NCBI GenBank assembly: GCA_903813345.2
Contig: CAIIXF020000004.1
Span: 908,513 to 972,512, forward strand
Source of the DNA: Owenia fusiformis
Taxonomy: Eukaryota; Annelida; Polychaeta; Sabellida; Oweniidae
Direction: 5' to 3'
DNA: 64,000 bases
In this document: piece by piece, positions 1,152 through 62,742 of the stretch
How positions within the stretch are numbered: the stretch's first letter is position 1
Layout: each line of letters opens with the position of its first letter
Notes under the pieces: model-generated
What the model saw: only the letters and a program-made list of their open reading frames with translations
Databases searched by the model: none
Told to the model about the DNA's origin: nothing
Made by a program: the position numbers and the translations under genes

Positions 1152-4100
1152 CGACTGGAAGAAATTGTATAATAGTCAATATGGCAATTGTTATACGTGG
1201 AATTTTGGATATAATAACACCATAAAGTCAACAAGCAGATTCGGATCACGATATGGTAATTATGATTTTCGCTATTTAATATGTTCATGCGGTATCCGTC
1301 AATCGTATAATTACTAACGTCATCATACCATTATATTTTTGATTTGACATTCGGTTGTATGGGTATTTTATGCGAAAAAGCAAAGACACGTTTGATTTGT
1401 CCTACAGTGACTCCTTAGCACGTGCGTGAGCCATTGTCGATTCATCTTGATAGTAACGACGGCGACGTATTGAGGCTTGCAGGATCTGTCATTTGTGGGG
1501 GTTTTCACATAAACTTACCCCACACAGTCATTCTATACTAACAAACAGACAAATTATGAGTCAAAATGGGGTCAAAAACACAACACAATCTTCACAGATA
1601 TTTTTTGTCCATCTACCAGACAAATCATTAGGAATTTGTTATTACCAATTTTACACTACCCCCTTGGCCACGTGATGGTGTTAGCCCCAAAACGTCAACA
1701 ATTTTTCATAGTGTGTCTAAAATACTTATGAGCCATGTCATAACGTCTTTTTCGTTAGTGCTGACATTTTTTAGGACCCTCATATCCTCATTTCATTAAC
1801 TTTGAGATCTAACATTTGCCACGTTTGTTGTTTTGTGCTTTATAATGTTGCCATTTGTGATAATCAATAGGATTGAGACTGACACTGAATGCCCAGGCGG
1901 ATGAATACATAGGATTACTTTCACACACTGTGGGTGCACGGGTGACTGTTCACTCCCATAACGTCATGCCTTTTCCCGAAGACCAGGGCGTAAGTGCGTC
2001 AGTTGGTAGAAAGACGGGCATCGGCGTACAGATGGTAACATTTTACATAGTCTTCTTCGAATATTTCAGTCAATTAGTTCGATATAATGAATATCCTGTA
2101 TATCTTATAACTATAACTGTACTATACCATGTCATTTGAACACTTACTACATTCTTCTTCATAAGTTTGCATTTGATCAGCATATGAAAGCCTGCCAATG
2201 TTTAAATTTTAAAAACAAAACGTTTGGATTCTTTACGTGTAATAGGGACCGTCCCATGATTTATTTTGAAAATATCTATATTAGCAAAACATCAAACGCA
2301 AACCCTATCCCTTCCCTACAATTTGGGACCGTCTCATAAATTAATTTGAACATATCTATTTCAGCAAAACATCAAACGCAAACCTTATCCTTTCCCTACA
2401 ATTCGGGACCGTCTCATAAATTAATTTGAACATATCTATTTCAGCAAAACATCAAAGGCAAACCCTATCATTTCCCTACAAATTGGGACCGTCTCATAAT
2501 CTAATTTGAACATATCTATTTCAGCAAAACATCAAACGCAAACCCCATCCTTTCCCTACAAACTGTACATATGGGACACATTTACAATCAAACTACGAGG
2601 GCGACTACTCCGTTTTGGTAAATATTATATTATATATTATTATAAATTATAGATTCAATTAAAAAGTGTCTTTTGACTTTTGAGGGCATAATTTAAGCCC
2701 TTATAAAGCTTGTATGAAATGAGCATGCTGTATACTTTTAAGGTGTGTATTGACGCATATACAATGTTTTTGTCATTGCTTAAGCCATGTGTATTGACGT
2801 ATATATCAAATGTTTTTCTAATTGTTTAAGACATTGGTATTGACTTATTTGTTTTCAGTCCTGTATGATGTCCTGCCTCCAGAATAAGATCAAAACTAAT
2901 TGTAAATGCGTTGACAAGATCGTACACAATCAAACAGCATGTGACATCACAAACACAACTCAGGGTAAATATATACATATGTACAGGCTAGACCATTACA
3001 TAAATCAATATAATATAATTGTATAGACCATTAGAAAGATATATAGATGTGTAATTCAACACACATACATTGTAGATACAGTATTTGTATGTATTTTAGA
3101 GAAATGTAGACAAAGGATGTACCATTTGATTATATTGTAGAGAAATGTAGACAAAGGATGAACCATTTGTTTGTATTTTAGAAAAATGTAGACAACCATT
3201 TGATTATATTGTAGAGAAATGTAGACAAAGGATGTACCATTTGTTTGTATTTTAGAAAAATGTAGACAAAGGATGTACCATTTGATTATATTGTAGAGAA
3301 ATGTAGACAAAGGATGTACCATTTGTTTGTATTTTAGAAAAATGTAGACAAAGGATGTACCATTTGATTATATTGTAGAGAAATGTAGACAAAGGATGTA
3401 CCATTTGTTTGTATTTTAGAGAAATGTAGACAAAGGATGTACCATTTGATTATGTTGTAGAGAAATGTAGACAAAGGATGTACCATTTGTTTGTATTTTA
3501 GAGAAATGTAGACAAAGGATGTACCATTTGATTATGTTGTAGAGAAATGTAGACAAAGGATGTACCATTTGATTATGTTGTAGAGAAATGTAGACAAAGG
3601 ATATACCATTTGATTATGTTGTAGAGAAATGTAGACAAAGGATGTACCATTTGATTATGTTGTAGAGAAATGTAGACAAAGGATGTACCATTTGATTATG
3701 TTGTAGAGAAATGTAGACAAAGGATATACCATTTGATTATGTTGTAGAGAAATGTAGACAAAGGATGTACCATTTGATTATGTTGTAGAGAAATGTAGAC
3801 AAAGGATGTACCATTTGATTATGTTGTAGAGAAATGTAGACAAAGGATGTACCATTTGTTTGATGAGGCAAAACTGGGGTGCGATTGCCCACAAGCGTGT
3901 GAGTAAGTCACCTTTTTTATCATCGATGCATAATTTAGACTGGCAGGAATAAAGGTAAATTATTGATACCAGCGAAGAGCAAATAACAAATATTCTCTAT
4001 TGTTGAATTTCCAGACGGAAGATATTTTTAACTCACCGTTCAATGACTAATGTGTGCACTATTAACGAATTTAGAGTATCCAGGTGTTATACATGTAGGT

Positions 4101-6404
4101 TATTGTTGACAAATCTAAAAACGATTACTTGATTTCACATACAGCTTTTTCCATTTTAAGTATACGTGTAATAAAGTTTGATATGATTTCTTTAAACGTC
4201 CTATGATTTAATAAAGCATTTTAAAACCAAACAAAACAGACCGTTTACGTTTTGATCGATGGAGCCAGTCGCATGAGTTCAAGTAATTGAAATATTTTTA
4301 GAGAGTTAGTGTACGGTACAACAATCTCAGGGTCAGAGTGGCCAAGTAATCAATACAGTCCATATCTACTGCAGAAACTGGAAGGCGGATCACCAGTCAG
4401 TGATATCAAGTAAGTGTTGAGCCCTACCCGACCACAAATCCTGCCTTTTAACTCACACAAACACCGGGTGATTTAAATACATGTATGTGATTTCAAGAAA
4501 AAACTTAGTTCAATTCAATGTCAATTCAATTTGTTCAAAATTCCATCATACAATATTTCATATATAACATGAAAAAGACACTTGAAGGGGCGTATATATT
4601 CCATGGGTCATATTTTTAGTTGACTTTAAATTTCCTATCTATTCATTCCATTGAGTAAAATGCAATTTCTTTATTTTGGATTTCCTGTTTCGTTAATTAT
4701 TTGAGTCATTTCCCGTATTGCTTTCATAAAATCGTACGTACTCACTTTTATGGAATAACAATTATGACCATTTTCCATATAAATGGAAAAAGATGGCATC
4801 ATGGGTGTTGGTAGGGCTAGAAATGCCTAGAACACATGCCTAGATCACATAATGTCATGATCTAACAAGTAATTCCATTTGGATCAACTTAAAACACCAT
4901 TGGAATGTAACTATATGATATTACTGACACGTGGATTGTGATTTCACATTACAAGAGTACAAGAGTAAATGAACTTTTAAAGGTTTTTCAACATGTTAGC
5001 AATGGGGATTAAGCCCGACCTTTTTTAGACAACTAGAAAATATTTATAAGAATTTGAATAAAGGTAAATAACGGTGAGAATCAAAGTTGTTTCGATAGAA
5101 AATTACACAGAGAATTCAAATATGCCATCAGATAGAAGAAAATGTTAGTCTTCAATTGTTATAAATGCAGATCTCCTAAAATCTCATTAAAACGAGACTT
5201 AAACGAGATTTCAAAGGCATATGGAAAAGGACCTTTGACTTGCTTATTTAGTAAAAATCGACCATGAACTTGCACTTAGGGTGATTATGCATGAGAGAGG
5301 AGGATAAACGCACGGAAAATTTAACGATAGTCGAAGATTCTATGCGAGTACAACATTGATTCCTATGAACACTCCTATTACACATAAAGATTTATTCCAC
5401 GATTTGAAAAAATATTCCAAAATAGAGAGGTGCATTTATCGAAGTACCCCGAACAACAAATGGCTGGCCAATCGGGTGCCAAATATTCTAGTAAAGTAAA
5501 CAAATACGTATTCTATGTATTTATAGATGTCGTTAATGATGTTTTTCAGCTGCTACACTCAGAATGTCGATTTGCAATAAGAACGACAATCAATTTGAAT
5601 GAATCAATTGGTTCATTCATATTGATCAATCTCCATTTTATTTTCATTTGATGTTATTGCAGACAAAACCTAGTCCGAGTACATGTGTACTTTGAGACCC
5701 TCGCCGTCCACACCATCGAGGAAGTCCCTAGTTATACTGTAAGTACTTCCCATAACAATCGCATATTTTGGTGGCTTTTGGAGTTCTTCTTTTATCCAAT
5801 TACTGGAACTGCATTTTTATTTATTAAATTCAAAATTTTTGTCTCCAATTTTTTTTGTGGATCGTGTCTGGCAGATAGCGTTTGACGGTCGGGGGTGGGC
5901 ATCAACAAATGGCAGGTGCTGACATTTTGCACGTTAATGCCTTGTTGTTATATATATATTGGGACAATATTTTATCGTTAGGGTCCATCGTTAGGATTTT
6001 TACTTATTTCAGTCATTGATTTCCGACCTAATGAAATAGGAACACGATTGAGATTCAAGTTAACAGGCTCTCAAGGCTCAACATACGTCCAAAACTTAAA
6101 ATCTTACTTTAATATTGAGATTAAAACTGTGTCCATTTATGGATCTTAATTTGGTTTCTTTATTACAATAGTTTGTAAAATGAGAAATTGGATGGCTTCT
6201 TTGCCATTCTGATGGAGTTGAGTGTTATGCCCCATTTTTCTGTTACAGTGGGACAACTTGCTAGCCGACATTGGTGGAACGATGGGAATGTTCATAGGTA
6301 TATCTATATGTACTGCCTTTGAGATCGTCGAACTCTTAATGGAGATTGGGAAACTTGTTGTCGGTAAAATGACCAACAAAAATAAAGTGACATCATTAAA
6401 ATGA
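1152..6404 (+). CDS. DEG/ENaC-family sodium channel (amiloride-sensitive/FMRFamide-gated type), 3' half
   Basis: Seven exons join in phase: 1152-1255, 1871-2034, 2859-2964, 3830-3902, 4302-4409, 5663-5738 and 6249-6404, giving about 261 C-terminal residues. The family hallmarks come in order. Exon 1 has QYGNCYTWNFG. Exon 2 has GLRLTLNA, then a GARVTVHSH...PFPEDQG stretch and GRKTGIG. Exons 3 and 4 carry the extracellular cysteines, ending GCDCPQACE. Exon 5 has the SEWPSNQYSP motif and exon 6 VRVHVYFETL. Exon 7 has LLADIGG followed by the second membrane segment with the selectivity-filter type motif GIS and the FE after it. The protein should be a plasma-membrane trimer subunit passing sodium. 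Which ligand gates it (peptide, acid or mechanical) cannot be read from this half. The N-terminal cytoplasmic part, first membrane segment and finger region lie upstream of the window. Introns are 0.4-0.9 kb, except for a 1.4-kb one, and several hold minisatellites. Confidence 0.9.
2245..2570 (+). repeat. 80-bp minisatellite in a DEG/ENaC intron, four copies
   Basis: Copies begin with gggaccgtc at about 2245, 2325, 2405 and 2485, each 80 bp later. Each contains tatttcagcaaaacatcaaa or a close variant. The first copy is the most diverged (gtcccatga, ttagcaaaac). Every unit holds a tttcag or attag string that could act as a weak splice acceptor, but none leads into a useful reading frame. The array sits between the exons at 1871-2034 and 2859-2964. 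Confidence 0.85.
3092..3860 (+). repeat. 41-bp minisatellite duplicating a splice acceptor and the start of its exon
   Basis: About 19 copies of a 41-bp unit run from about 3092 into the exon at 3830-3902; one copy near 3181 is shortened. Two variants alternate at the left end: the 5' part reads gtttgtattttag, while the 3' part is mostly gattatgttgtag. All units continue (a/g)aaatgtagacaaagg. The last unit is the real one: its tag is the acceptor and the following bases are exon. A few copies read gatataccat instead of gatgtaccat. The array therefore multiplies a functional exon border inside the intron. Confidence 0.9.
3830..3902 (+). CDS. DEG/ENaC exon built from the last unit of the 41-bp array
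   Basis: The previous exon ends with one spare g. Joined to ag it gives Glu, then KCRQRMYHLFDEAKLGCDCP and QACE. The donor is ga|gtaagt, and the next exon supplies a final a to make Glu. I chose this acceptor (tag at 3827-3829) because it is the only nearby one that gives both the right phase and the conserved C-x-C-P-x-x-C pattern. The nearer tag at 3837-3839 gives the wrong phase. The first ten or so codons lie inside the repeat unit. Confidence 0.8.
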
Positions 6405-8010: not shown

Positions 8011-11000
8011 ATTAGACTCCAGATTGAAAATCTGGAGTCTATTGTTTTTGCCTGTTTTCTTATTATTCTTTTTCTTCTTCTTCTTCTTCTTCTTCTTCTT
8101 CTTCTTCTTCTTCTTCTTCTTCTTCTTCTTCTTCTTCTTCTTTCTTCCTCCTAACAGATTTTCTCTCCAACTATAACATCTTACTTCATCCAACCTACAT
8201 GGTTGACTAGGGAATGTATCTAGCTTTCTGGGAAATTAGGTCAAATTTTTATCTAGGTCAAAGGTCAAGAACTAGGTCACGTCCTACATTTTCAACATTC
8301 TGACATTTATCTTCCTACATCTTTCATCTAACTCCTTCATCTTACTTTCATTATGTAGCTTAGAAAAAGCCCTTTCATGAGTGTGCCATCAGATTTTTGA
8401 TTACTCTTACCGATTTTGAGATATGGCGTCCGGAAAGTAGGTCAGAACAAAAAGTTCTCCAAATTCAACATGTGAGTTATGAAATAAGTGTAGAATGATC
8501 TCAGGAATCCGAAACTGCAAACCAAATTTGGATCGGACTTCCGGTTCGGAAGTTATGGCGTTTTGAAAGCTCAAAAATCGCCAAATTTGGTGCCTATGTT
8601 AAGTCAATGGGAAAAAAGACTTTTTCGAAGTGTAAAATACAAGATATAGACTGAGTACAGCTTAACATAATGAATGCTTATAAAAGAAGGGGACCTCAAA
8701 AGCTACAGTAGCTTCAAAATTTGGACACCAAAATGCCTAGGTCAAAATCTAGGTCAAATTCATAGTTTTTCCTTATATTTACGATTCTGACACTACACTT
8801 TAATAATTTACTTCAAAATTTTGTATACAGGTAGCAAAGAGTGTGCTAATAGTGTTAGCCTTTTGCCGTCAGAAAGTATTTTGACCAACTTTTGAGATAT
8901 GGTGTCCGAAAAGTAGGTCAAAAAAAAAAGTTCTCCAAATTTAACATATGAGCTATGAATTTAGGGTAGAATTTTCCCAGGAATACGAATCTGCAAACCA
9001 AATTTCAATCCGATTCTCAGTTCCGAAGTTATGGCGTTTTGAAAGCTCAAAAATCGCTAAATTTGGTGCTTCGTGTTATGTCAATGAGAAAAAATATTTT
9101 TTTGAAGTGTAAAATAGCAGATATAAACTGAGAACAGCTTAACATTCTGAAAGCCTATAAAAGAAGGGGACCTCGAAGGCTATCTAGCTTTAAAATTTGG
9201 ACACCAAAATGCCTAGGTCAAAATCTAGGTCAAATTCATAGTTTTTCCTTATTTTTGCGAATCTGACATTACACTTTAATGATTTGCTTCGAAATTTTGT
9301 ATACAGGTAGCAAAGAGTGTGCTTATAGTGTTAGCCTTCTGCCGTCATAAAGTATTTGACCCACTTTTGAGATATGTAGTCTGAAAAGTAGGTCAAAATA
9401 AAAAGTTCTCCAAATTTAATGTATGAGTTATGAATTAAGGGTACAATTTTCTCAGGAATCAGAATCTTTAAACCAAATTTCGATCCAACTTCTGATTAGA
9501 TAGTTATAGCGGTTTGAAGTCTCGAAAAGTCAATATGATGATCGATATCCCCATGTTAAGCCAATGGAGTCGAAGATAACATTCTTAAGAGTTGTCTAAA
9601 TGTCTATATTCTAGCTGACTCAGCTTATGCTGAATGACTCAGCTTACAAGTATTTAGATGACTCAGCTTAAAAAAAGTCTGAAATCTGGAGTCTTAAATT
9701 GAACTTGTTCAATTTACATGTCTAGTTATTCTTCTTTTTTCTTTCTTTCTTTCTTTCTTTCTTCCTCCTAACAGATTTTCTCTCCAACTATAACATCTTA
9801 CTTAATCCAACCTACATGGTTGACAAGGGAATGTATCTGGCTTTCTGGGAAATTAGGTCAAATTTTTTATCTAGGTCATAGGTCAAGAACTAGGTCAAAT
9901 CTTGGATTTTCACTAATTCACCACTTTTCTCAGTCGTCTTTCAATATTTTCGCTCCAATTTTTTTTCATCATGTTCCTTGGAAAAAACGCTAATTCCGAA
10001 AGGCAAATCGTTTTTTGATTACTCTTACCGATTTTGAGATATTGCGTCCGAAAAGTAGGTCAGAACAAAAAGTTCTCCCAATTCAACATGTGAGTTATGA
10101 AATAAGTGTAGAATAATCTCAGGAATCCGAATCTGCAAACCAAATTTGGATCAGACTTCTGGTTCGGAAGTTATGGCGTTTTGAAAGCTCAAAAATCGCT
10201 AAATTTGGTGCCTATGTTAAGTCAATGGGAAAAAAGACTTTTTCGAAGTGTAAAATACAAGGTATAGACTGAGTACAGCTTAACATAATGAATGCTTATA
10301 AAACAAGGGGACCTCAAAAGCTACATAGCTTCAAAATTTGGACACCAAAATGCCTAGGTCAAAATCTAGGTCAAATTCATAGTTTTTCTTTATTTTTACG
10401 ATTCTGACACTACACTTCAATAATTTACTTAAAAATTTTGTATACAGGTAGCAAAGAGTGTGCTAATAGTGTTAGCTTTTTGCCGTCAGAAAGTATTTTG
10501 ACCCACTTTTGAGATATGGTGTCCGAAAAGTAGGTCAAAATAAAAAGTTCTCCAAATTTAACATATGAGCTATGAATTTAGGGTAGAATTTTCCCAGGAA
10601 TACGAATCTGCAAACCAAATTTCAATCCGATTCTCAGTTCCGAAGTTATGGCGTTTTGAAAGCTCAAAAATCGCTAAATTTGGTGCTTCGTGTTATGTCA
10701 ATGAGAAAAAATATTTTTTTGAAGTGTAAAATAGCAGATATAAACTGAGAACAGCTTAACATTCTGAAAGCCTATAAAAGAAGGGGACCTCGAAGGCTAT
10801 CTAGCTTTAAAATTTGGACACCAAAATGCCTAGGTCAAAATCTAGGTCAAATTCATAGTTTTTCCTTATTTTTGCGAATCTGACATTACACTTTAATGAT
10901 TTGCTTCGAAATTTTGTATACAGGTAGCAAAGAGTGTGCTTATAGTGTTAGCCTTCTGCCGTCATAAAGTATTTGACCCACTTTTGAGATATGTAGTCTG

Positions 11001-12956
11001 AAAAGTAGGTCAAAATAAAAAGTTCTCCAAATTTAATGTATGAGTTATGAATTAAGGGTACAATTTTCTCAGGAATCAGAATCTTTAAACCAAATTTCGA
11101 TCCAACTTCTGATTAGATAGTTATAGCGGTTTGAAGTCTCGAAAAGTCAATATGATGATCGATATCCCCATGTTAAGCCAATGGAGTCGAAGATAACATT
11201 CTTAAGAGTTGTCTAAATGTCTATATTCTAGCTGACTCAGCTTATGCTGAATGACTCAGCTTACAAGTATTTAGATGACTCAGCTTAAAAAAAGTCTGAA
11301 ATCTGGAGTCTTAAATTGAACTTGTTCAATTTACATGTCTAGTTATTCTTCTTTTTTCTTTCTTTCTTTCTTTCTTTCTTCCTCCTAACAGATTTTCTCT
11401 CCAACTATAACATCTTACTTAATCCAACCTACATGGTTGACAAGGGAATGTATCTGGCTTTCTGGGAAATTAGGTCAAATTTTTTATCTAGGTCATAGGT
11501 CAAGAACTAGGTCAAATCTTGGATTTTCACTAATTCACCACTTTTCTCAGTCGTCTTTCAATATTTTCGCTCCAATTTTTTTTCATCATGTTCCTTGGAA
11601 AAAACGCTAATTCCGAAAGGCAAATCGTTTTTTGATTACTCTTACCGATTTTGAGATATTGCGTCCGAAAAGTAGGTCAGAACAAAAAGTTCTCCCAATT
11701 CAACATGTGAGTTATGAAATAAGTGTAGAATAATCTCAGGAATCCGAATCTGCAAACCAAATTTGGATCAGACTTCTGGTTCGGAAGTTATGGCGTTTTG
11801 AAAGCTCAAAAATCGCTAAATTTGGTGCCTATGTTAAGTCAATGGGAAAAAAGACTTTTTCGAAGTGTAAAATACAAGGTATAGACTGAGTACAGCTTAA
11901 CATAATGAATGCTTATAAAACAAGGGGACCTCAAAAGCTACATAGCTTCAAAATTTGGACACCAAAATGCCTAGGTCAAAATCTAGGTCAAATTCATAGT
12001 TTTTCTTTATTTTTACGATTCTGACACTACACTTCAATAATTTACTTAAAAATTTTGTATACAGGTAGCAAAGAGTGTGCTAATAGTGTTAGCTTTTTGC
12101 CGTCAGAAAGTATTTTGACCCACTTTTGAGATATGGTGTCCGAAAAGTAGGTCAAAATAAAAAGTTCTCCAAATTTAACATATGAGCTATGAATTAAGGG
12201 TAGAATTTTTCCAGGAATCCGAATCTGCAAACCAAATTTCAATCATACTTTCGGTTCGGAAGTTATGGCATTTTGAAAGCTCAAAAATCGCTTAATTTGG
12301 TGCCCCATGTTATGTCAATGAGAAAAAAGATTTTTTTGAAGTGTAAAATACCATATATAAACTGAGTACAGCTTAACATTCTGGAAGCCTATAAAAGAAG
12401 GGGACCTCGAAGGCTATCTAGCTTTAAAATTTGGACACCAAAATGCCTAGGTCAAAATCTATGTCAAATTCATAGTTTTTCCTTATTTTTGCGATTCTGA
12501 CATTACACTTTAATGATTTGCTTCGAAATTTTGTATACAGGTAGCAAAGAGTGTGCTTATAGTGTTAGCCTTCTGCCGTCAGAAAGTATTTTGACCCACT
12601 TTTGAGATATGGTGTCTGAAAAGTAGGTCAAAATAAAAAATTCTCCAAATATAACGTATGAGTTATGAATTAAGGGTAGAATTTTCTCAGGAATCAGAAT
12701 CTTTAAACCAAATTTCGATCCAACTTCTGATAAGATAGTTATAGCGGTTTGAAGTCTCGAAAAGTCGATATGATGATATCCCCATGTTAAGCCAATGGAG
12801 TCAATGATAACATTCTTAAGAGTTGTCTAAATGTCTATATTCTAGCTGACTCAGCTTATTCTGAATGACTCAGCTTACAAGTATTTGGATGACTCAGCTT
12901 AAATAAAGTCTGAAATCTGGAGTCTTAAATTGAACTTGTTCAATTTACATGTCTAG
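8011..12956 (+). mobile_element. Tandem array of a Helentron/HINE-like non-autonomous element
   Basis: Three units end at about 9725, 11342 and 12956. The left edge has a perfect hairpin (arms of 12-13 bp, 8014-8040: agactccagatt...aatctggagtct). Each unit ends with one arm of it (aatctggagtct, for example 9683-9694), then a second hairpin with aaattgaac and gttcaattt as arms (9696-9715), then acatg and tctag. A 5' sub-terminal inverted repeat, a microsatellite ((CTT)n or (CTTT)n), internal tandem repeats and a 3' hairpin are the known layout of Helentron-associated elements such as DINE-1 or the bivalve pearl elements. Inside each unit a block of about 475 bp (for example starting at 10071, 10547 and 11022) repeats three times. 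No protein is encoded. Confidence 0.65.
8071..8142 (+). repeat. (CTT)n microsatellite
   Basis: Over 20 perfect CTT triplets near the left edge of the first element copy. The poly-Leu and poly-Lys open frames across it are artefacts. In the other two copies the same place holds a short (CTTT)n run. Confidence 0.95.
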
Positions 12957-14342
12957 TTATGCTTGCAGATTAGACGTTAAGTCTGAAATAAGACATTATG
13001 TCTTCATTGATCAGTATCACGAGAAGGCAACGTCCGTTACCTGGTTACCTTCTATTTCAAAATGGCGGACGGTAAATGTCCTTCAATACCATTCGAGTTC
13101 CTTTCACAATTTACTGGGATTTTGGAATGCCAACACAGGCCTTTAATGGGAGAGTACATTATTTTTTAGGTTTGTCCGTATGCTCAGAAATCACCCCTTC
13201 CTAATTGTGAGTCTTTAATTATTTTCAGGTACATACAACTCTTCCATACATGCTCTACATCTTTCAGTTTTTGGCAATCACGATAGATGAATACCTTGTT
13301 TAAGTTGATGTATATGTACACCTAGATGTGAAACTGGGCTCCAATTAGGAAGTCATTACAAGTTTCCGAACATAGGGGACTAATTTAAATGACAGAATAC
13401 CACATACATGTATACTAAAGAGCCGTCATTTAGATTACACAACACAGTTATTGTAAGATAAAATGATGTCTCAGAGTCCCTAGCCATTGGACTTTGCACA
13501 AACAACATAAAATGCATAATTAACACAAAATTTCATAAGTGGAGGTCAGATTTTATTGTTCAATGTTATTGCACTATTGTTAGGAGATACAGTGTTCCAA
13601 AACATGTAAAATTCAAACAGGTTTACATTTTTTCAGATATCGGTACCACAATTTTGCATCCAAAAGTTGTTAGGTTAATAGGAATATACTGTCAAGATTC
13701 TCGTTTTAAAACATAGTTTTCCAATGTCCTCAGTTGAGTAAGCTCAAAACCTGCTTTATCCTTTGCGTTTCCTTCCTGTGTGTGCGTGCGCAACTGCTTC
13801 CAGCGCAGACGACATCTCATTCCACAATATTCCGCATTTTAGACAGGCCCCACATTCCTATTTAAAAGTTGGAATATTGGCATCGCTGGAAATGTCCGTT
13901 TGATGCTTTGCAAAAGAGGGCATCAGAAAGTTTCAAATCTCACTCTCGCGATAGTTCATGAAAACGAGATTTGTATAATCAGGACTGATAAATATTCAAA
14001 CACAAACTATAATAGAAAAACACTACTGGATATTATAAACGCATATTACAACTAATTCAATCCAGAATGGAATAGAAAAGAATAATGTACAGTAATGACT
14101 CAAGAATTGATGGCCGTTTTCCGTCAGTCAATATCCACGTGTGAAAATATTCTCATAATTTCAGGAGGATGAAATTCACTGTTCAGTCCTAATGTACTCT
14201 ACATTCTATTTCAGCAGCACTTTACTAGTGTGTTATGCAAATACAACCAAGAATATTTAGCCGTCCTGAATACTGAGTTACCCAAATACACATCATATCG
14301 TCATAGTGGTGCTTGCGGCAGGTCTTTAATGCGCATGCGCAT
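12957..14342. other. Intergenic and 3'-flanking sequence of the light chain gene
   Basis: On the - strand this follows the light chain stop codon. Candidate polyadenylation signals read on the - strand are ATTAAA at 14330-14325, very close to the stop, and AATAAA at 13557-13552, about 0.8 kb beyond it. Nothing else was recognised. Confidence 0.4.
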
Positions 14343-43944: not shown

Positions 43945-46900
43945 ATGTTTAACAGAACGCTCGCTGTTTTGATCGGAGTGTTAGTAGGCGTTTTTATATT
44001 GATCGGTGGTGTTATACTTGGATTGTTTGTATCCGGAATCCTAAGAGGTACGTAAATTATCAGACGGAGCCAGACATGGAGCGAGCGAGGCAACTGCTAT
44101 TTTTTCCAGGAATATGTTTTTAGACTTTTTTTTACTAATAAGCCTCACCCACATTGCTCTTCGCGGGCGTACAGCGGCCGTAGCTTCACAAAATCAATAT
44201 AGAAAATCTACATTATCTTGACATTGTCATATGTAATTGATTTACGTTTATTTTTTCGAAACAACATTTTTGAAAAATTGCTATACCTGCCCATGTTATT
44301 TTCTGGTACAAAATAAAGTATGAAGGCATTTGTGTATTTCCTTGCCCTTTTCAGGAAAGTATAATTTCATTTTTTCTCTAAGTAAACCTAATAAGTGGTC
44401 AATGGAAATCCAATGTTATTGAGAAACTTGGAGAAAAGAATTGGAAAATTGAAAAGGCGGTCACACTTATGGAGGGGAGTGTCTGTGATTTCAATTACCA
44501 GTGAATATTCATATACCTGTACTCTGTTATATAGTTTATGCCTGGGTCACATTTTCTCCGATCCATCGGCCGGCTCGGGCGATTGAGTGTTTTGCTCAAT
44601 ATTGCATTCAATTTTGACCAAAATACCCAATCGGCCGGGCGCCGAAGTGAAAATCGGAGCAAATGAGACCAAGGCGTTACTAAAGCAGATTCTAAATCTA
44701 TTCATTTTTGTTTAGGAACTGGCTTTTTGACGAATGAAATGAATGCGACAACATCGGGTAACGTATAACAGTTTTATCATAATACGATCCCCGGGGAGTT
44801 CACTCCAAATAATTTGGGTAGGTATGCGCAGCACGGCCAATTTTGGCTTTGAGCGCATAACACATGGAAATTTGCCGATCTGAGAGAAAAAGGGAAAAAT
44901 TGTCTAAGAAAGTACCTTTTTAAGTCAAAATTCAGTTTTTCTCCAAAAAACTATATTAAATTTGTTAAATCAGTTGCTGAGGCCTTGAACAAATCACTAG
45001 AAAAGTTGATTTTTAGACAATTATAAGTCTTAGAGGAATTTAACGTGGAAACCTTCAATCTAGGAGGAAATTTAAATGGAAAAAATGCTCAAAAAGGGGT
45101 CTCTGGGGCAGCACATAGGTATTAAGTATATTGGAGTGAAAAACCCGGGATACGATCTGTCTCGTTTGCTAGATTTAAACCATCACTATTCAGTTTGGTT
45201 CCCCTTGTCTAATCGAACAGTAATAGTAATGTAGAATTCCAGACTGATCATCATAATCTTTAAAGCCTTTTCTGTGTTTTAATCAATAATTTTCATCGAT
45301 ACAATATTGCACTTAAATTTTTACCCAGGAGTGGATATCAGTATCTTCATTCTTCACGAGTGTGTTATTGATGCAAAACCAAAACAATATATGTGGTAAT
45401 ACAGACTTTAGGGGCTATTATTCAAATAATCTTTATTTTACAGCTCCCACAACTACTACAGCGACACCTACAGGTAATTATATCTAGACTCTGCACGCAG
45501 GGTATGTAATCTACGTCACAATTATTTATAATTTATAATTTATTTATTGGGTTTCCTTAAAGTTTTTAGTCACCCTTCCCTTTTGGCATTTGTGCTTATA
45601 TATTCAGATGCTGTGTCTTACGTATTCTTCATGAGGTATCGTTTTCATCAAATAGTCTCTATCAACTAGAGGAGAGAGTGAGTTATTTTTAGACGGTTGC
45701 TGATAATGCTAATATCTTCTGCTCTCCATCACTTATGCAAACAATTGTATAATTCATTATGAAAATAAAACAATACAAGAAAATGTTATTCATTCATTCA
45801 AAAATCATTTTGAGACTTTTTTGTTATTTGTGATAACGATAGAATAAATGTTTGTATAAATAAGAAAATAATTAATGTTTTTTGTAAAGATCCCTCAAAA
45901 TGGTGGCTGGAGACTCCCCCGAAGGATGCAATTGCTCTGGCGCTTTACCAACAGCACATACAGTCCAACAACATCATTAGCTCATACTCGCAAGATGAAG
46001 TTCCATCTAACCCTGCTGTATGTGGAGATCCTCGATTAGGTACTTTTAACCAAGGCAATATATTTCTATACTGGATGCACATGCATTGGCGGCGCTGAAC
46101 ACATACTCAACTTCTGTGCATGCACTCGCCATCTATACACGTACGCGCCTTCTATACACACACTCGCCTTCTGTGCACGCACTTGCCTTCTATGGACACA
46201 CTCGCCTGCTGTGTACGCACTCGCCTTCTATGCACACACTCGCCTTCTGTGCACGCACTCGCATTCTGTGCGCGCACTCGCATTCTATGCACGCACTCGT
46301 CTTCTGCGCCTATATTCCAAAGGACGCAACTCGACATTTTCCAAGAATGAAAATGTCAGAATGTCGTTATTTTCTGACATTTTAACTAACTATGAGTTCA
46401 TAGTCAATAGTCCCAAGGATTCAGATCAATATCTCGACCACTTCTTGTGAGTTTTCGAATTTTTGTTTAGAAATAATTCCTAAACTTCAAATTCTGAAGT
46501 GAACAAAATGGCGGCTCTAGTGCAGTGCATAGCGTATTACAATTGAATTGAGTTTAGGGTTAAAGTTTTTCTTTGCAGATGGGTGGCTATTGTGTAATTT
46601 AAATGTCTATTTAATACCAATAGAGTTACATCCACATTTGCGCCAGATGACATTGCTTTGAAATAAAACATATAACATCACTAGCCTTTGATATTAACAT
46701 ATTTTCAGCTGCCCGTACATTCAACTGTACCAACAACAGAGCTAGAACAATTGATGGGACCTGTAATGACTTGGACAATCCAGGCGTCGGTAGCAGATCG
46801 ACTAGATTTAACCGAAATGTACCATTGAACGAGACGGCTGCGGAAAACGAGACGCTCCAAGCAACACCAAACCCAAGACTCGTTAGTGAAAAGCTTCTCC

Positions 46901-49900
46901 AACGAAAAGAGTTCATTCCTGCTCCAAGTATTAACTTGTTTGTGGCTGCATGGATACAGTTTATGATACACGACTGGTTTGACCATGGCACAAATGATAA
47001 AACAAGGTAACTAATGACCCATTGTTCATGAGTCATGAAACGTCATTAGGAGAGGTTGAGCTGACAATATTTCCCGGGCAATATTTGAATCTGTTTTTGA
47101 TGTAAATAGTATTCATGTAATATGCTTATATGTGGTTCTTGGATTGAGACAATATCTAAAGTGTGGTACTCTTTAAATTTGTTCTTCACTGGCGATCCAC
47201 TCGATTACGCTAGAACCGTTTCGGTAACAAAATGTCGGAACGTCGAAGGTACGATTTTTCCTTATTTCACACGTTGTAGGCAGAATTCCCACGACATTTT
47301 TATTACAAACGTGTATCAGTATCATATGTCTAAGAAAATGTACACATTTGCGAACAAATAGTTCAGAAGACAGCGGAATCGTCGTTTATGTAACTTAAGT
47401 GAGGAATTAAATCGACGATTCTGTTGTCTTCTGAGCTATTTTGCCGCAACCATGTACATTTTCTAAAACATATAATACTGATACACGTTTGTGTGAAAAA
47501 ATATTGTGGGGATTCTGCCTACGACTCGTGAAATAAGGAAAAAAGAAAAATTGTACCTTCGACTTTCCGACATTTTGTCACCAAAACGAACTGTTTTGGT
47601 AACCAGCGTAATCGAGCGGATCACCAGTGTTCTTTCCCCATTTGACATTTGTCCTTTGATATGTTACATTAGTGGGCAACGTGTGCCCACTTCAAGGCAT
47701 GCTTCCAAAGTTAAGTGATAGCCGGAGTTAGAAAGTTTGTTCCCTTGAAACGGGTGTCGACTTTTGGGTTGCAACCGAAGATACCTCAAGAAAAGCAGGA
47801 GATTGCCGAAGATTTTCTTTGCAAACGAAGTTGGCCGAGGATACCACGAATGTGAAGAGGACGTCTCTAATTGGTCAAAAAGAGAGGCTCGGCATTCTCC
47901 GTCAGATTGAATCGGCAAAATTCGGTTGTATGGCTTACCTTCGGTTGTATGGCCTACTTTCGGCTGCATGGCCCAACCTTGATTGAATGGAAAAGATGCT
48001 GTCCCCCTTGAAACAAAACTAATGACCTTAAGCCCTAGGACCCCCTTTCACTTGTAATTTTGCTTAATATCTATTTAGTTCATTTATAATTTGGATTATT
48101 TCATTAGGAACATCCGTGTTAAAGTATCGGAAGATGACCCGTTGGGTAATTCTGAAAATGAAATCATAGTGGATCGAACAAGAAAGAATGACTGCAATAC
48201 TTCTAAATCCACGGACACGATGTTCCAAAATGACGTCACACACTGGTGGGACGCCTCCCAAATGTACGGATCCGATGCTAATAGAAACAAAGAGATTCGA
48301 TCATTCAAAGATGGAAAACTGATACTTGCTGAGAATGGTCGTCTCCCTCTTGAACCATCTAGTGGTTTGCCTATAACAGGTTGGTATATCATACATGTTT
48401 TAAACTCATCCTTTGTGTACGAAGCTCATACCGGAATACCCTGACAACGGTAAAGTCATATACCATTGTCACAAATGGCGGACATAACCGTCGCTTCAAC
48501 TCTTTAATCACTTGGTCCTCGTTTCATGGGACTTTGTCGTCGCTGATTCTGTGCATGTATTAAGCTCTTGTGATGATGTATAATATGAAATTCCAATTTC
48601 TATCAAATTGGGTGGTGAATTGCATCAATATAGCGTCTTCGATAGCAACAATATAGCGTGACATTTCAACCTTATCACATTAAATTAATTCACCTATGCA
48701 CTTGTGCCATCTATTCATCACTTACGAGATAGATTTAACTGTATGAATATCTAGTGATCTGAGCCAACTCCAAAACACATAAATATTTATGTATAAATCA
48801 TATTCTTGAGTAGGCCTATTTGTGAGCTCCTTACTTTTAAAATATTTTTAGAAATAGTAAGTGAAGTAAAATTTTCGTTTTCAGAGAACGAGTTTTTCAT
48901 TTTCATTATCCATATATAGTCGAAAATGTTATAAAATTATATTTGGTTTACGTCTACTTTTTTAAATAGAATATATGTGTCTCTTTTTGATCACCATGTA
49001 TTGAGAAAGATACACGAGAGGGATATACGTAGATGTGTCCTAGCCTATGACTTGTTAATGTTCCGTGTTAAACCCAATTTGTGGCTTCATACCTGCTCTT
49101 CTAAATATGATATTTTTTGTCCACCCTGTATTAAGACAGATTCACCATATCTATTAAAGAAGGGTATACGTAGATTTGACTTTGACTTGTTAATGTTTCA
49201 ATTTACAGGTTTCAATAAAAACTGGTGGGTTGGCTTAACGTTGATGCACGTTGTGTGGACGAAAGAACACAACGCTGTCTGTGATATGTTGTTGGGGAAT
49301 CATCCAGATTGGTAAGATAATAGCCTTGTCTGAATCGGTATTAGCTTGATTTTCAGTTAATACCAGAAATATTAAAATACGTCGACTTCGGGCAAGCCTA
49401 GTAAGATACGAGCAGAGACATGTAGGATTGGGAGGGGGGGTCATTTTCAGAAACTTCGCAAAGTTAAGAATGCCTTAGTTTATTATGACTATATCATTAT
49501 ATACATAAGTGTATTATGACTATATCATTATATACATAAGTGTATTATGACTATATCATTATATACATAAGTGTATTATGACTATATCATTATATACATA
49601 AGTGTATTATGACTATATCATTATATACATGTTCACAACATTAAGATCGATGTATTTTTAATTGTTAGTTGAAGGATTTTTTGTCAAATTATTTATTTAA
49701 CTTTACGATAAGGTTAATGCAACACGATGCAAATGCAGTTCGAGCTGCAATTAATTTTGTCAAAATACATGGTGTCCATAAAGTCTCTTTACATTTACAA
49801 GAATACAAAATTTGTGTAATATGAAACTTTGTGGTCACCCAGTATTTTATAAAATCTCATTGAAATACCATAGCTTAAATTGAATTACTTTAAATTATTC

Positions 49901-52900
49901 GACAAACGTCCCTCTACTTCAGGTCTGACGAGCAACTTTTCAGCACTGCACGGCTTATAATATCAGCCACCATAGCGAGAATACACACCCTCGAGTGGAC
50001 CTCTGCAATATTAGCTAACAGGGTTGTCAAATTAGCATTAAAATCGAACTGGTATGGTGTTAGTTTAATCGAGTCTACTAACGGGAATAAGGCTGTAGCA
50101 GATTACCTGGCAGGATTGTACCCAATGCTATCACAAGGAATACCTGGAGCAATAGGTAATAAAGCGGGTATTTGATGCATTGGCCTAAAGCCCGGTATAC
50201 ACCAATGGGGCAAGTTGGGACCTCCATAGACTTAACATTGCGTGGGACCTCGTGGGACCTTTTGGGATTTTGCCCCAGGAAGTCCGTGGGACTCCTTTGG
50301 ACTCCGTGGGATTTTGCCCCATCTTGCCTCATCGAGTCCCACGAGGTCCCATGAAGTCATCAAAGTCATCAAGGTCCAATGGGACTCCGTGGGATTTTGC
50401 CCCATCTTGCCTCATCGAGTCCCACGAGGTCCCATGAAGTCATCAAAGTCATCAAGGTCCAATGGGACTCCGTGGGATTTTGCCCCATCTTGCCTCATCG
50501 AGTCCCACGAGGTCCCATGAAGTCATCAAAGTCATCAAGGTCCAATGGGACTTCGTGGGATTCGATGGGGCAAATTGGGATTCGATGGGGCAAGATGGAA
50601 CTCGATGGGGCAAGTGGGATTTTGCCCCATTGGTGTATACCGGGCTTAAGTTACATATAGTACATTTAATACCCCATTTCTGACTTTAGACCACTTCGTT
50701 CCAGTTATTGTGACGTAGCATATCATATGAGAATATTGTTACTTTCGACCAATACCTGTGACGTATGGCGCTAGGGACCAAATTTGAAACACTTGCCCCC
50801 ATGGTGCCCCCCATGGGTTTACATATATTAAATGTATGTGTTCATATAGACACACCCCATTCTCTTATACGTCGTAACACCGGAAGCTTACGACGTATAC
50901 CCAATATTTTCGGCGGGAGATTTGAAAGTACTCATTTATTTCGACGTTTTGACAGAATATGGTTCTTTCCCTTTCGTAGAAACATTGACCATACCATGCA
51001 GATATACCTCTTGTATCACTGCGTCTCAATATTTCGTCTGAACACGGTCTAGAACTTCTCAAACCTTCTAGAAAGCACGACAAATTTTGGAAAGAAATGA
51101 TCATTTTTTTCACAAAAATGATCATAGTTTCTATAATTCTAACCCTATACTCTTGAAGTATTGATTAGATTAACAGTGCAATTTTTATACATCATTCAGA
51201 CACTTCAGTTTCTTAACCAATGAAAGAATTCCCACAGATTTTTCTATGAAGATATACGACGTTAAGGAGGTTTACGGCGTTTACCATGACATTGTTTCTT
51301 TATATTGTCTTGATCTTACCTCACTTAACACGTATTTAATAAGATTTACGTTGATTTAACATTAAACGTATTTACAAGATTATGGTAATATAATTTTTTT
51401 CTTTTAGTTGGGTCAGTATTAGGGTTTCCAGGCCATGGAGGCTTAAATTTTCCCTCGGAGCAAAAACAAAAAACAATAAATTTGAGAGGCTTTACTTCTC
51501 CCGAAATAGAATTTTGGTAAAGCTCGGTGATGCAATGTCCCTGATCCACTAAATTGTATTGTATTGTATTGTATTGTATTGTATTTTGTTTACCACCAAT
51601 GAAGGTGAGCAATACCTCTTGGGTTTATCCCGTATATATACGGTCGTAATTAACGTAATTAGCCTGGAAGATTTGAAGAGCCAGAAACCCCTCCTCAAAG
51701 GAACCCTGTGTTATTTTAAGTGCACCCATACATAGACATACAAATACACACCACAGCCTTTTGTACAAGTTGTGGACCACTCAGTCAAACACCCTGAAGT
51801 ACTTTAAAATTCTGAACGCCAGAAAAAACTCTTACTCAAAATGTTCCTACTATTTCATGATGTAAGATCATTCACAATCACGCCTAGCCATCGACAACGT
51901 ACAGTGACAAAATATACGGGTGTACACTTTAACTGTTTGCATCAAATACTTGTGATGTAGGTTTTAAATGATGTATCTAGGGAATATGATAAAGTTGTTC
52001 ATGTTTAATTCTATGTGCATGCTCCAGGCAAGACTTTAAACTTTTTAATTATGTTAACAGATTCTCAAACAGAGCACTAGTGTTTTCAAGGTAATTCCAC
52101 CCATGTCCATGTGAACATTTTCCAAACGGTCAATTATGTGGGTGGAATTGCCTAGAAAAAATTCGACCACTGCTCGAGAATCTTTTAACGTAATTAGAGA
52201 GTTAAAAGTCTTGCCAAGAGCATGCACATGAAATAAAAATGAAATTCTACTTCATATCCTTTAGATAATATTTTTAAAACCTACATCACAATTTTTAGCT
52301 TCAAACATTACAATGTACAGCTAAAGTGTACAATCGTATATTTCGTCACTGTACGTTGTCGATGGTTAGGCGTGACAATAATATATTACTATAAACTGGC
52401 TGGAGATCACATGATGAGTGCATTGATTGTGAAGAATGTGTTTCAACAATAGAACACAAATGGCTACATTTTGGAAACACATATAATCGAATCAATCAGT
52501 TTAATTGAGCAGTGTTTGATTCAAGGAAACTGATAATTTCTGTAAATTTGTGCTCTGTTAATTGATGCAACAAAAATTGGAAAAGCAGGAGGTTGAAAAT
52601 TAGGACAACATTTCAGAAAAAACATGTGGGTGGGTTGTTTGCATCTTCCCTGTCTCAAGCAAATTTGGCAACATCTAAGGACATTTAGCAGCATTTAAGT
52701 AGATTTAGCAACGTTTAAGCGAATTTGGCATACACTAAGCAAAAAGTAAATTTGCTTCCGCAAAAATTTGACGAAATACATGTAAGTATAGTGTTTGTTT
52801 GGTTGTTTTTACAAAAGTTGCATAAATTAATGTTTATAGATGTATGTATAGATAGAATAATGTGTGTATAAATCTGCTGATTTATTCTATCCTCATAGAG

Positions 52901-55900
52901 ATTTTCACAACCTACTTAAATCAGGGAATCAGGCAAAGCAAGAGAGATATGTTTACCAGTCCAAAATACTTTTTAATTAGGTTGGCATAGGCGAGTTAAG
53001 TTTATGGTACCCCCGGATTCAATTACGTGTTTCCTTAAACGGTTGTCTTTTGAAAGAATGAAAGTTGCGACTTCAACTCAATAGACGTATATGCTTACTG
53101 AGAATACTTTCTTTTTCGACGTGGTTAGGCTTTGGGGGTTGGAAACCCGATTGACTTTGATGATGAACGCATCCTTGGCCCAAGAGTTCTTCATTGCATT
53201 ACATGAGCTGCTATGAAATCAGTGAAGGACCGATCTTATAAAGGATGGTTGAACGTCGTACCTTCCTTAACGTCGTATATTTTCAAAGAAAAATTAATAT
53301 CTCGGAATTCTTTCATTAATTTGGGAAACTGGAGTGTCTGGATAATATATATGAATTGTATTGTTATTATCATCAATATTCCAAGATGATAGGGTTAAAA
53401 TTGTAGAAAGTATGATGGTTTTTGTGAAAAATTATCATTTTTTCCCAAAAATTGTCGTGCTGTCTAGAAGGTTTCAGAAGTTTCAGACCGTGTTCTGACA
53501 AAATTTTGAGACGTAGTGATACTAGAGATATATCTGCATGGTATGGTCAATGTTTCGACGAAAGGGAAAGGATCATATTCTGTCAAAACGTCGAAATAAA
53601 TGAGTACTTACAAATCTCCGGCCGAAAATATTGTGTGTACGTCGTAAGCTTCCGGTGTTACGACGTATAAGAGAATGGGGTGTGATAGAGGTTCCACTAT
53701 TCTACATCAAATTATAGGGAAGCAGTTTAATTACTTTCCGAGATATCAACGTCTACATGTATGTATTGTAACTCGATTGTACAGGGTGGTCAAAAAACGG
53801 AAACCCTGCATTTTCGTCATATCTTTGTCATTTAAAAAAATTACTCCCTGATATTTGACACATTTGTACTTCATTCAATTTCCTACCACCCTACCATATT
53901 CCATGATCATCAGACTGATAGTCACAATGTTACAGCACTTTGAACAACATGCAACAGGTGTGGCCATCAACGCTGTATAGGCAAACAACATGCAACAGGT
54001 GTGGCCATCAACACTGTATAGGCAAACAACATGCAACAGCTGTGGCCATCAATGCTGTATAGGCAAACAACATGCAACAGATGTGGTCATCAACGCTGTA
54101 TAGGCAAACAACTACAAATAACTTTGCACATTTGTACTTCATTCAATTTCATACCGGCCTACTATAGTTCATGACCATCAGACTGATAGTCACAATTTTA
54201 CAGCACTTTGAATAACATGCTTCAGGTTTGGCCATCATCGCGCTGTAGGCAAACCTGCACAGTTGTGAATGACCCGAATCCTGAATGACAAGGGTCATCT
54301 CACTTTTGAGGTTTGCAATTGTACTGAGGTCATTCTCATACTCTTTATCTCTGCCATATCCACACAGGTAGGAACATTTTGGACGTCGTGTGCAGGTTTC
54401 CCGACAGCGCAATAATAGCCACCGGAGCATGTTCTTTAAAGTGCTGTAACATTGTGACTATCAATCTGATGGTCATGAAATAGAGTAGACTGGTGGGAAA
54501 TTGAATGATGTACATATGTGAAAAGTATCAAGGAGTTATTTCGTAAAATGACAAAGATATGTGGAAAATAGTGTACGGGTTTCCATTTTGACCACCCAGT
54601 AATTCATTTATTAAGCAATGACAACGTGGGAACTCTATACATTACACATATACGAATATTATTTTGCAGGAAACCCCAAGGACACGAGGGGAGTTCCTTT
54701 TGCCTTATCAGAAGAATTCGTTGCAGTGTATCGGTTGCATCCGTTGGTACCAGACAACATAGAGATAAGACGCCACACGAATGGCACTCTTGGTAAGTTA
54801 TGTCCGATTGTATTTGGATGCTTATGTATAAATACATATAGACTAAATAATACTTTTGACAAGTATAACCCAGAAGAGGGGCTTTTCCGGCATATTTTCA
54901 ATAATCTTGTTCAATGAAACTACAGGATAAGGCCGATAGAAATATTTTTTAAACAAAGATGGCATGGTAATCGAGATGTGTTCATTTATTGGATTCTGCT
55001 AGTGCTGCCATCTTGGATGTATATCTAGCCAGAACCTATGAATGAAACTATGAAACTCTTTATAGCTTCTAGGTATAATTTGCCCGAAGTAATGTTCAAT
55101 AAGTCTGAGGAAGTACTGGATAACAACGACATTCGGGACGTTCTGTTCACTTTTGGAAATGCATATTCTGGCGCGATGAAGCTCCACAACTACCCGAACT
55201 TCCTTCGTAATCTTCAAATGCCGGAAGGAGGGCCGTCGATCGACTTGGGAATGATCGATTTGGTGCGTGATAGAGAACGAGGAATCGCAAGGTACATCTA
55301 CTTACAGGCCCGTAGCCAGGGGGGGGGGGCGAACCCCCCCCCCTGGCCAAAAATTCTTTCAAAATCATGCAGTTTTTCACCATTTTGAGCACTTTTCAAG
55401 TGATTTTAGCCATATTTAGGCCAAAATTGTCAAATGTGAACCACCCCTGGAAATTTTTGAAAACTGAACCCCCCCACCCCCCCTTGGCAAATCCTGGCTA
55501 CGGGCCTGACTTATCAACGATTTAATTTTCACAACAGCAAATGCAATTGAAAAACGATTATTTGGCTACAATAAGCATAGGAAATCCTTACTTTTTCCTT
55601 TGCTTATATAACTTTGCTTATACGATGTACTCTCTTACACCTGAACACGAAGCGTTTCATTCATTTAGCACCCGTCACTTTGTGCTCAAAAACCAGACAT
55701 ATAGAATATATCGATATACGATAGAATCTGTATCCATTCCTTCCCTAAATTCTGTTTACAGTTTAAAATGAAAAACTAAACGTACATAAATTGCAACTGC
55801 TTTTTAGATACAACAAATTCCGACGGTTGATGAACCTTCCACCTGTGAAAACGTTCGAAGAACTAAATCCCGATCCAGCGATTGTTGCTGCTCTGAAGGA

Positions 55901-56506
55901 AGTATATGACAATGATATCGATATGGTTGACCTTCTAGTTGGTGGATTAGCAGAGAGCGATGTGCCAGATGGATTTGGTTTTAGTGACACGATTTTCAGG
56001 TAGTGGAACGGATGTATGTAATTTTTGTCCCACATAATATGTCACGCTTGAGGAAATACCTTTACAGATAGGAAGAATTATGGTCCCACGGGTGCACTAC
56101 ATGTAGTTCCCCATCAAGTTTATAGTACTTATTCACCATAAACTAAAAAAGGAAATTTGTAATAAGACAACTATACGAATCAATTTAAAAACTGTACATG
56201 CGAGGATCCTACATTTAAAGCATTTTGAAAAGGTGGTTGCAGTTCACATTTGCTGAAACTGAAATTGCACAAATAAAATGAAGAATGTGTTTGCTTTTCA
56301 GGATTTTTGCCGTTGCTGCTCGCAGAAGGCTTGAAACTGACCGGTTCTTCACTGACGACTACACAGAAGAGTTCTACACGAAGGAGGGTTTGGAGTGGGT
56401 GGATAAGACGTTTTTTGGTGACGTTCTTGCCCGTCATTATCCCGAACTGGCTCCTCATCTGGCTAATAGCGACAATGCATTTGCACCATGGGGGAACACC
56501 TTCTAG
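43945..56506 (+). CDS. Membrane-anchored alpha-dioxygenase-like haem peroxidase (fatty-acid oxygenase candidate)
   Basis: Twelve exons join in phase into 669 residues: 43945-44047, 44716-44757, 45444-45473, 45890-46039, 46709-47006, 48108-48379, 49209-49311, 49923-50155, 54670-54792, 55033-55291, 55808-55999 and 56302-56506. Residues 1-9 are followed by one hydrophobic helix (about 7-33), then a Thr-rich linker (about 49-58), so a signal-anchored enzyme facing the lumen or cell exterior is likely. The catalytic domain has DGTCNDL, the distal motif QFMIHDWFDHG (His196, His201), WVGLTLMHVVWTKEHNAVCD and EEFVAVYRLHPLVPD. In the last, Tyr431 and His434 have the Tyr-x-x-His spacing of the radical-forming tyrosine and proximal haem histidine of cyclooxygenases and plant alpha-dioxygenases. 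RERGIARYNKFRR follows. This subgroup oxygenates fatty acids; substrate and product are not determined here. All junctions preserve frame, so the gene looks functional. Confidence 0.9.
44540..44675. mobile_element. Short inverted-repeat MITE, 136 bp
   Basis: GCCTGGGTCACATTTTCTCC at the left matches, with a few changes, the reverse complement of the right end (gagcaaatgagaccaaggc). The two halves almost fill the element, making a hairpin around ttgctcaatattgc. It lies in the first peroxidase intron. A target duplication was not resolved. Confidence 0.6.
46113..46318 (+). repeat. 19-bp GC-rich minisatellite
   Basis: About 11 copies of actcgccttctgtgcacgc with transitions (gcattctgtgcg, cttctatgcacac). 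It lies in a peroxidase intron, 75 bases after a donor site. All + strand frames stay open across it, giving artefactual proteins with THSPS or ARTRLL repeats. Confidence 0.9.
47187..47629. mobile_element. Fold-back MITE with CACTGG ends and 5-bp target duplication, 443 bp
   Basis: Ends are CACTGGCGATCCACTCGATT and, read inward from the right, CACTGGTGATCCGCTCGATT. The arms extend about 200 bp inwards with gaps (aaaatgtcggaacgtcgaag; tacacattt). TTCTT flanks both sides (47182-47186, 47630-47634). No coding. A 5-bp duplication with CAC ends fits Transib-type insertion, but CACTG ends also occur in CACTA-type elements, so the superfamily is open. Confidence 0.7.
49450..49630 (+). repeat. 31-bp minisatellite, about five copies
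   Basis: Near-perfect copies of gtattatgactatatcatta plus tatacataagt in the intron after the peroxidase exon 49209-49311. Confidence 0.9.
50189..50646. mobile_element. PIF/Harbinger-like MITE, 458 bp, GC-rich
   Basis: Perfect inverted ends of at least 25 bases (AGCCCGGTATACACCAATGG...), flanked by TAA on both sides (50186-50188 and 50647-50649), the 3-bp TWA target typical of Harbinger elements. The interior holds three copies of an 83-bp repeat (tccgtgggattttgccccat ... atcaaggtccaatgggac) and many small gggac/gtccc inverted repeats. It begins 33 bases after a donor site in the largest peroxidase intron. The frames over it are artefacts. Confidence 0.85.
51557..51591 (+). repeat. (GTATT)n microsatellite
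   Basis: Six to seven pentamer copies inside the fold-back element. Confidence 0.9.
51878..52375. mobile_element. Inner palindromic element nested in the fold-back element, 498 bp
   Basis: TCACGCCTAGCCATCGACAA at the left faces its near reverse complement at the right (ttgtcgatggttaggcgtga). The arms match nearly to the centre at about 52125 (tgtgatgtaggttttaaa, gcatgctc, agactttaaac). CAA stands on both outer sides and may be a 3-bp target duplication. No coding. Confidence 0.6.
53782..54599. mobile_element. mariner-like non-autonomous element, 818 bp
   Basis: Ends CAGGGTGGTCAAAAA and, read inward from the right, CTGGGTGGTCAAAAT, flanked by TA (53780-53781, 54600-54601). The arms extend over 150 bp with gaps (catatctttgtcatt; gatagtcacaatgttacagc). 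It contains four copies of a 41-bp repeat. The right edge lies 70 bases before the acceptor of the exon at 54670. Confidence 0.75.
53944..54110 (+). repeat. 41-bp tandem repeat inside the mariner-like element, four copies
   Basis: Units of about aacatgcaacaggtgtggcc plus atcaacgctgtataggcaaac. A diverged fifth copy lies at about 54214-54254 (catgcttcaggtttggcc). Confidence 0.9.
55305..55508. mobile_element. hAT-like MITE with 5-bp target duplication, 204 bp
   Basis: Ends CAGGCCCGTAGCCAGG and CCTGGCTACGGGCCTG, flanked by ACTTA (55300-55304, 55509-55513). Long G and C runs near the left (G11, then C12) form a second hairpin. CAGG-type ends suggest hAT; the 5-bp duplication is shorter than the usual 8, though some hAT groups make 5. 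It begins 13 bases after the donor at 55292. Confidence 0.7.
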
Positions 56507-62100: not shown

Positions 62101-62742
62101 TAACGTACACTCCCCTCCACAAGTTTGGCAACCCAATGTTTTCATATGATAACGTACACTCCCCTCCACAAGTTTGGCAACCCAATGTTTTCATTTGATA
62201 ACGTACACTCCCCTCCACAAGTTTGGCAACCCAATGTTTTCATTTGATAACGTACACTCCCCTCCACAAGTTTGGCAACCCAATGTTTTCATTTGATAAC
62301 GTACTCTCCCCTCCACAAGTTTGGCAACCCAATGTTTTCATTTGATAACGTACTCTCCCCTCCACAAGTTTGGCAACCCAATGTTTTCATTTGATAACGT
62401 ACACTCCCCTCCACAAGTTTGCCAACCCAATGTTTTCATATGATAACGAACACTCCCCTCCACAAGTTTGGCAACCCAATGTTTTCATTTGATAACGTAC
62501 TCTCCCCTCCACAAGTTTGGCAACCCAATGTTTTCATTTGATAACGTACTCTCCCCTCCACAAGTTTGGCAACCCAATGTTTTCATTTGATAACGTACTC
62601 TCCCCTCCACAAGTTTGGCAACCCAATGTTTTCATTTGATAACGTACACTCCCCTCCACAAGTTTGGCAACCCAATGTTTTCATATGATAACGTACACTC
62701 CCCTCCACAAGTTTGGCAACCCAATGTTTTCATTTGATAAAG
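59158..62742 (+). repeat. 49-bp satellite array, about 73 monomers, built from a Tc1-type MITE end
   Basis: The monomer is CACTCCCCTCCACAAGTTTG plus gcaacccaatgttttcattt plus gataacgta, 49 bp. It is very uniform; variable places are cac/ctc at the start, catttga/catatga, and cgtac/cgaac. One monomer near 60241-60290 carries an extra aacccaat block. The first 20 bases equal the dispersed MITE terminus, and the DNA just after the last monomer (gtcaatgtttgaatca) resembles the MITE interior. The open - strand frames with QMKTLGCQTCGG repeats are artefacts. Confidence 0.95.

Follow-up and report, generated by a model that had tools for sequence, protein, structure and literature searches.

Minisatellite-like duplications of intron-exon boundaries are described for the globin genes of amphioxus, where they carry the name mirages, taken from Adh3 (PMC3087553). 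According to that paper, unit lengths are 10-72 bp in Adh3, 150-160 bp in BflGb6, and 157 bp in BflGb9, and the BflGb6 mirage comprises six units in one haplotype and three in the other. The globin mirages bring possible cryptic sites and length instability, yet regular splicing was seen by RT-PCR (PMC3087553). PGBD5 and troponin C are listed as further mirage genes in a second report, in which the mirages of Adh and troponin C yield no aberrant mRNAs (PMC3902484). A literature search confined to open-licence papers found no multiplied acceptor outside amphioxus.

Two human minisatellites are related to splicing in other ways. The VNTR in intron 18 of ABCA7 has a 25-bp unit whose first two bases are the donor of exon 18. 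Retention of one unit amounted to 2 ± 1%, produced an out-of-frame transcript, and was unaffected by repeat length; exon 19 skipping increased with repeat length, and stop-bearing transcripts increased when translation was blocked (PMC5954066). For the 38-bp VNTR6-1 in intron 6 of TERT, repeat number is linked to splicing and to decay-prone isoforms. Some 3.5 kb separate this repeat from exon 7 downstream, and the authors attribute its action to a G-quadruplex (PMC11830802).

Here we describe a 41-bp array of 19 copies at a 3' splice boundary of a DEG/ENaC channel gene. It lies within a stretch of 64,000 nucleotides, the window, which was analyzed as a whole. The array is real and a further case of the mirage kind; any effect on gene output is hypothetical. 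As reported for BflGb6, tandem units bridge an intron end and the adjoining exon start, the genuine copy adjoins the exon, and AG is retained in many units; 19 copies are present here instead of six and three (PMC3087553). The unit length of 41 bp is inside the Adh3 range; at 80 bp, the unit of a second boundary array in this gene is intermediate between those of Adh3 and of the globin genes. Unlike the amphioxus mirages in the published sections available, these arrays reside in a channel gene that combines two boundary arrays with an array over its stop codon. The 41-bp unit resembles that of ABCA7 in including a splice site and in that use of a neighboring unit leads to a premature stop (through a frameshift in ABCA7), but it carries an acceptor rather than a donor (PMC5954066). 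It differs from TERT VNTR6-1, which is distant from the exon and for whose unit the accessible text mentions no splice site (PMC11830802).

Results

The DEG/ENaC gene occupies the first 7 kb of the window (G+C content 35.5%) on the + strand, from at least position 1152 to a stop at 6404. Eight exons were followed (Table 1), and their joined protein of 292 amino acids has an open frame with no broken codon. The protein belongs to the DEG/ENaC family, as it matched PF00858 with an E value of 2.6e-62 and 211.8 bits against a curated cut-off of 23.6, covering profile positions 174-455 of 455. It also matched 30 distinct PDB sequences at E values up to 0.001, with ENaC beta and gamma ranking best, followed by ASIC1 and others. 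Three displayed alignments to solved ENaC/ASIC chains run across the exon at 3830 and its neighbors with small gaps. Thus, 3830 is likely the true exon start, and the Pfam match and these alignments bear out the initial annotation, which had placed the exon there. Given the open frame across the eight followed exons, the gene is without sign of decay. No Rfam match and no tRNA were found. Exact scans gave 0 hits for a 29-base piece of the repeat unit in viral_contigs and 0 for a 24-base piece of a 49-bp satellite of the window in genome_contigs, two collections that are not designed to cover animals.

Table 1. Positions of the arrays and exons of the channel gene within the window
Feature	Position	Strand	Remarks
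Followed exons	1152-1255, 1871-2034, 2525-2617, 2859-2964, 3830-3902, 4302-4409, 5663-5738, 6249-6404	+	6249-6404 is the last coding part
Second boundary minisatellite, 80 bp x 4	2245..2561	+	decoy exon starts 2285, 2365, 2445; genuine 2525
Genuine exon after 80-bp array	2525..2617	+	homology
Preceding exon	2859..2964	+	sets phase for exon 3830
TTTGTATG	3084..3091	+	7/8 bases like TTTGTTTG at 3855-3862; possible duplication end points (putative role)
41-bp minisatellite, 19 copies of 3' splice boundary (18 decoys and genuine)	3092..3858	+	TRF, anchor count
18 decoy acceptors	3100..3829	+	first exon-like base 3100, 3141, 3182 (33-bp unit), 3215, then each 41 bases up to 3789
Genuine exon after 41-bp array	3830..3902	+	entered with one carried-over codon base; donor GTAAGT
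Last exon, coding part	6249..6404	+	TGA stop 6402-6404, inside 32-bp array
32-bp array over C-terminus and stop codon	6365..6964	+	14 AATAAA

TRF assigned the array a period of 41, 18.9 copies, and 91% matches. The anchor ATGTAGACAA occurred 19 times, spaced by 41 bases in 17 of 18 intervals and by 33 in one, and TAG preceded the exon-like part in 19/19 copies. The proposal of a multiplied acceptor with about 18 upstream copies was thus confirmed as 18 decoys plus the genuine copy. The unit had been said to hold the first 28 bases of the exon. A unit spanning the boundary is real, but as cut by TRF it holds 29 exon bases (3830-3858), and five decoys, those whose exon-like part begins at 3141, 3215, 3297, 3379, and 3461, extend this part to 33 bases, with one substitution in that at 3141. 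On the best reading, the founder unit consisted of 8 intron bases (3092-3099) and 33 exon bases. Copies 1-11 alternate between two types, and copies 12-19 share a single type of acceptor stretch. Among 18 copies (copy 3 excluded), 8 of 41 columns vary and the TAG columns are invariant. With so few variable columns there is no sign of selection either way, and selection on the acceptor was dropped as a candidate, the number of such columns being too small to decide.

Entry from the donor after 2964 carries over one base (G), so the phase is indeed set by the previous exon. From 17 of the 18 decoys the message would read GAG and 12 further codons before reaching TAG, the following copy's own acceptor (stop at codon 14). 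Copy 3, whose 33-bp unit is divisible by 3, stops 11 codons later at codon 25. A stop is therefore reached from 18/18 decoys; the claim that the TAG of the next copy always supplies it is accurate except for copy 3. Copy 19 (3830) reads EKCRQRMYHLFDEAKLGCDCPQACE and alone continues into the channel, in agreement with the view that only the last copy makes full-length protein. A second AG lies two bases downstream in 16 of the 19 copies, the genuine one included, and its use would read GAA ATG TAG in 16/16. By an established rule, a message whose stop precedes further exon junctions is a target of nonsense-mediated decay. Introns follow downstream of 3902, 4409, and 5738, and a decoy message should therefore be such a target. 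The arrangement of poison splicing, a decoy stop upstream of later junctions, was accordingly found for both stop positions, codon 14 (17/18 decoys) and codon 25 (copy 3).

The stops were compared with a simulation that drew random units matching the window in composition, gave them TAG or CAG as acceptor and a phase chosen at random, and required the exon part to be open; 1442 of 3000 units of 41 bp were retained. In these arrays 94% of decoys stopped, 68% of arrays had a stop for all 18, and in 16% the in-frame stop was formed by the acceptor itself. With units of 39 and 42 bp, just 26% and 24% of decoys stopped. Over unit lengths of 30-90 bp, a mean of 71% of decoys stopped and all 18 did so in 58% of arrays; these figures are lower since a unit whose length is a multiple of 3 is often left without a stop. 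Thus, a decoy stop is expected whenever the unit length is not a multiple of 3. The "built-in stop" requires no design, and the use of the acceptor as stop is a mild coincidence. The stop is thus no special feature, which weakens the initial interpretation: apart from the simulation, decoys of the second array stop in 3/3 cases.

This second boundary array, the 80-bp one, went unmentioned in the initial annotation; it likewise runs in tandem across an intron-exon boundary and is unrelated in sequence to the 41-bp array. Its decoys all read QNIK onward and stop at codon 20, in the intron-derived half of the unit; its acceptors are CAG in three of four copies and TAG in the first. Two boundary arrays of unrelated sequence in one gene point to a general duplication process. 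The 32-bp array, whose start falls within the last coding exon, encodes the C-terminal residues together with the stop codon and contains 14 of the 86 AATAAA hexamers in the window. A fourth array, of 46 bp x 2.2 (2744-2844), stops 14 bases short of the exon at 2859; its sequence CTAAT, 38 bases ahead of that exon, resembles a branch point. Three of the four arrays of the gene cross an exon edge: an acceptor edge in two cases and, in the third, the last exon's end, placed at 6416 (its coding part stops at 6404). Random placement gave at least three crossings in 10339 of 20000 trials and therefore left no signal; a stricter count, which required an array to overlap a single exon but not to engulf it, gave at least three in 478 of 20000, under a criterion picked after the arrays had been seen. 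Crossing of exon edges beyond chance was dropped, as random placement matches it.

Acceptors were scored with a rough matrix rather than with a tool. By this matrix, the genuine copy is outscored by five of the 18 decoys, equaled by eight, and superior to five. Because most decoys match or exceed the genuine copy, the acceptor itself gives no reason for the last copy winning. In exon definition, closeness to the downstream donor matters. Decoy exons would span 114 to 803 bases versus 73 for the genuine exon, and such closeness may favor the last copies. A scan for the first AG from an upstream branch point is likewise an established idea and would favor the first copies. Neither for the genuine copy nor for the 18 decoys was a YTNAY branch-point-like motif with an AG-free path found 12-60 bases upstream. 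The search is a poor test, because two other genuine acceptors among the eight (4302 and 6249) fail it too. Leakage to the decoys could be large.

Folding of the array was also considered. The fold was better than that of plain shuffles (z -5.15, 20 shuffles). Against arrays of shuffled units, 116/200 were as good for one unit type and 13/200 for the other, and against shuffles of single units, 506/1000 and 46/1000 were as good for the two types. An RNA rod hiding the decoys was dropped as a candidate, the fold being unremarkable against shuffled-unit arrays and borderline for the second unit type.

Discussion

The array is probably a by-product of tandem duplication that the gene tolerates, a mirage as in amphioxus, with mis-spliced messages removed by decay. 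A 41-bp segment, the last 8 intron and first 33 exon bases of the DEG/ENaC gene, would have been duplicated in tandem, probably between the short similar sequences TTTGTATG and TTTGTTTG as we infer from their likeness, and would have grown to the 19-copy minisatellite through slippage or unequal exchange. At the genuine exon, the adjoining copy would still open the full-length message, presumably as the preferred acceptor and with low leakage. The 18 upstream copies would constitute extra acceptors of similar sequence; their mistaken use would lead to an in-frame stop, and nonsense-mediated decay would probably clear the message. Most likely, the array is neutral and tolerated and was not selected as a control device.

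Frequent decoy use might instead lower the output of the gene, as a defect or load rather than as regulation. Nineteen acceptors of nearly the same sequence follow one another, among which a first-AG scan would favor early copies, and by the rough matrix the acceptor score gives the last copy no advantage. Such a costly leak nevertheless appears unlikely, as the frame of the eight followed exons is open with no broken codon and published mirages are reported to splice normally (PMC3087553, PMC3902484).

Quite improbable in our estimation is a regulatory dial, in which the genuine acceptor faces competition from decoys that each end in a stop, so that copy number sets channel output. By the rough matrix 13 of 18 decoys equal or beat the genuine site, and each of the 18 reaches a stop; stops are, however, expected without selection, as the simulation indicated. 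The human studies tie repeat number to splicing in TERT (PMC11830802) and repeat length to exon 19 skipping in ABCA7, but in ABCA7 the use of the neighboring unit was independent of length (PMC5954066), and the published mirages are reported as not disturbing splicing (PMC3087553, PMC3902484). Judged by these nearest measured cases, a strong regulatory effect of copy number is unlikely. We give similarly little credence to the extended form of a heritable, perhaps somatically variable dial, to which each 41-bp unit would add a stop-bearing decoy and for which the 80-bp and 32-bp arrays would be two further controls. If it were true, allele length and cell-to-cell length changes would set the amount of this channel made.

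Long repeats are often mis-assembled. That the copy number is wrong, the array having collapsed or expanded in assembly, is nonetheless very improbable: although the globin paper describes an aberrantly assembled mirage (PMC3087553), the copies here differ in an ordered manner (alternating types in 1-11, one type in 12-19), and a simple copying error would not produce such an array.

The presence in a single gene of two boundary arrays and of one over the stop codon suggests that gene boundaries can give rise to such arrays repeatedly. Mirages would be more widespread than described in the papers cited if the host were not a lancelet. If the decoys are used, the locus offers competing acceptors of nearly the same sequence as a natural series, well suited to studying the choice of one among nineteen by the spliceosome.

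Tandem repeats also occur in the rest of the window. Pieces of an animal haem peroxidase gene lie at 46651-56503 on the + strand (PF03098 was matched by 7 of 10 open frames submitted) with several minisatellites among them; inspected by eye and without worked-out exon borders, none of the arrays near this gene was seen to cross an exon edge. At 8111-12964, tandem copies of about 1616 bp are 93-96% alike and contain inner repeats of about 475 bp. A 49-bp satellite of 73 copies with 97% matches (TRF) extends from 59158 to 62744.
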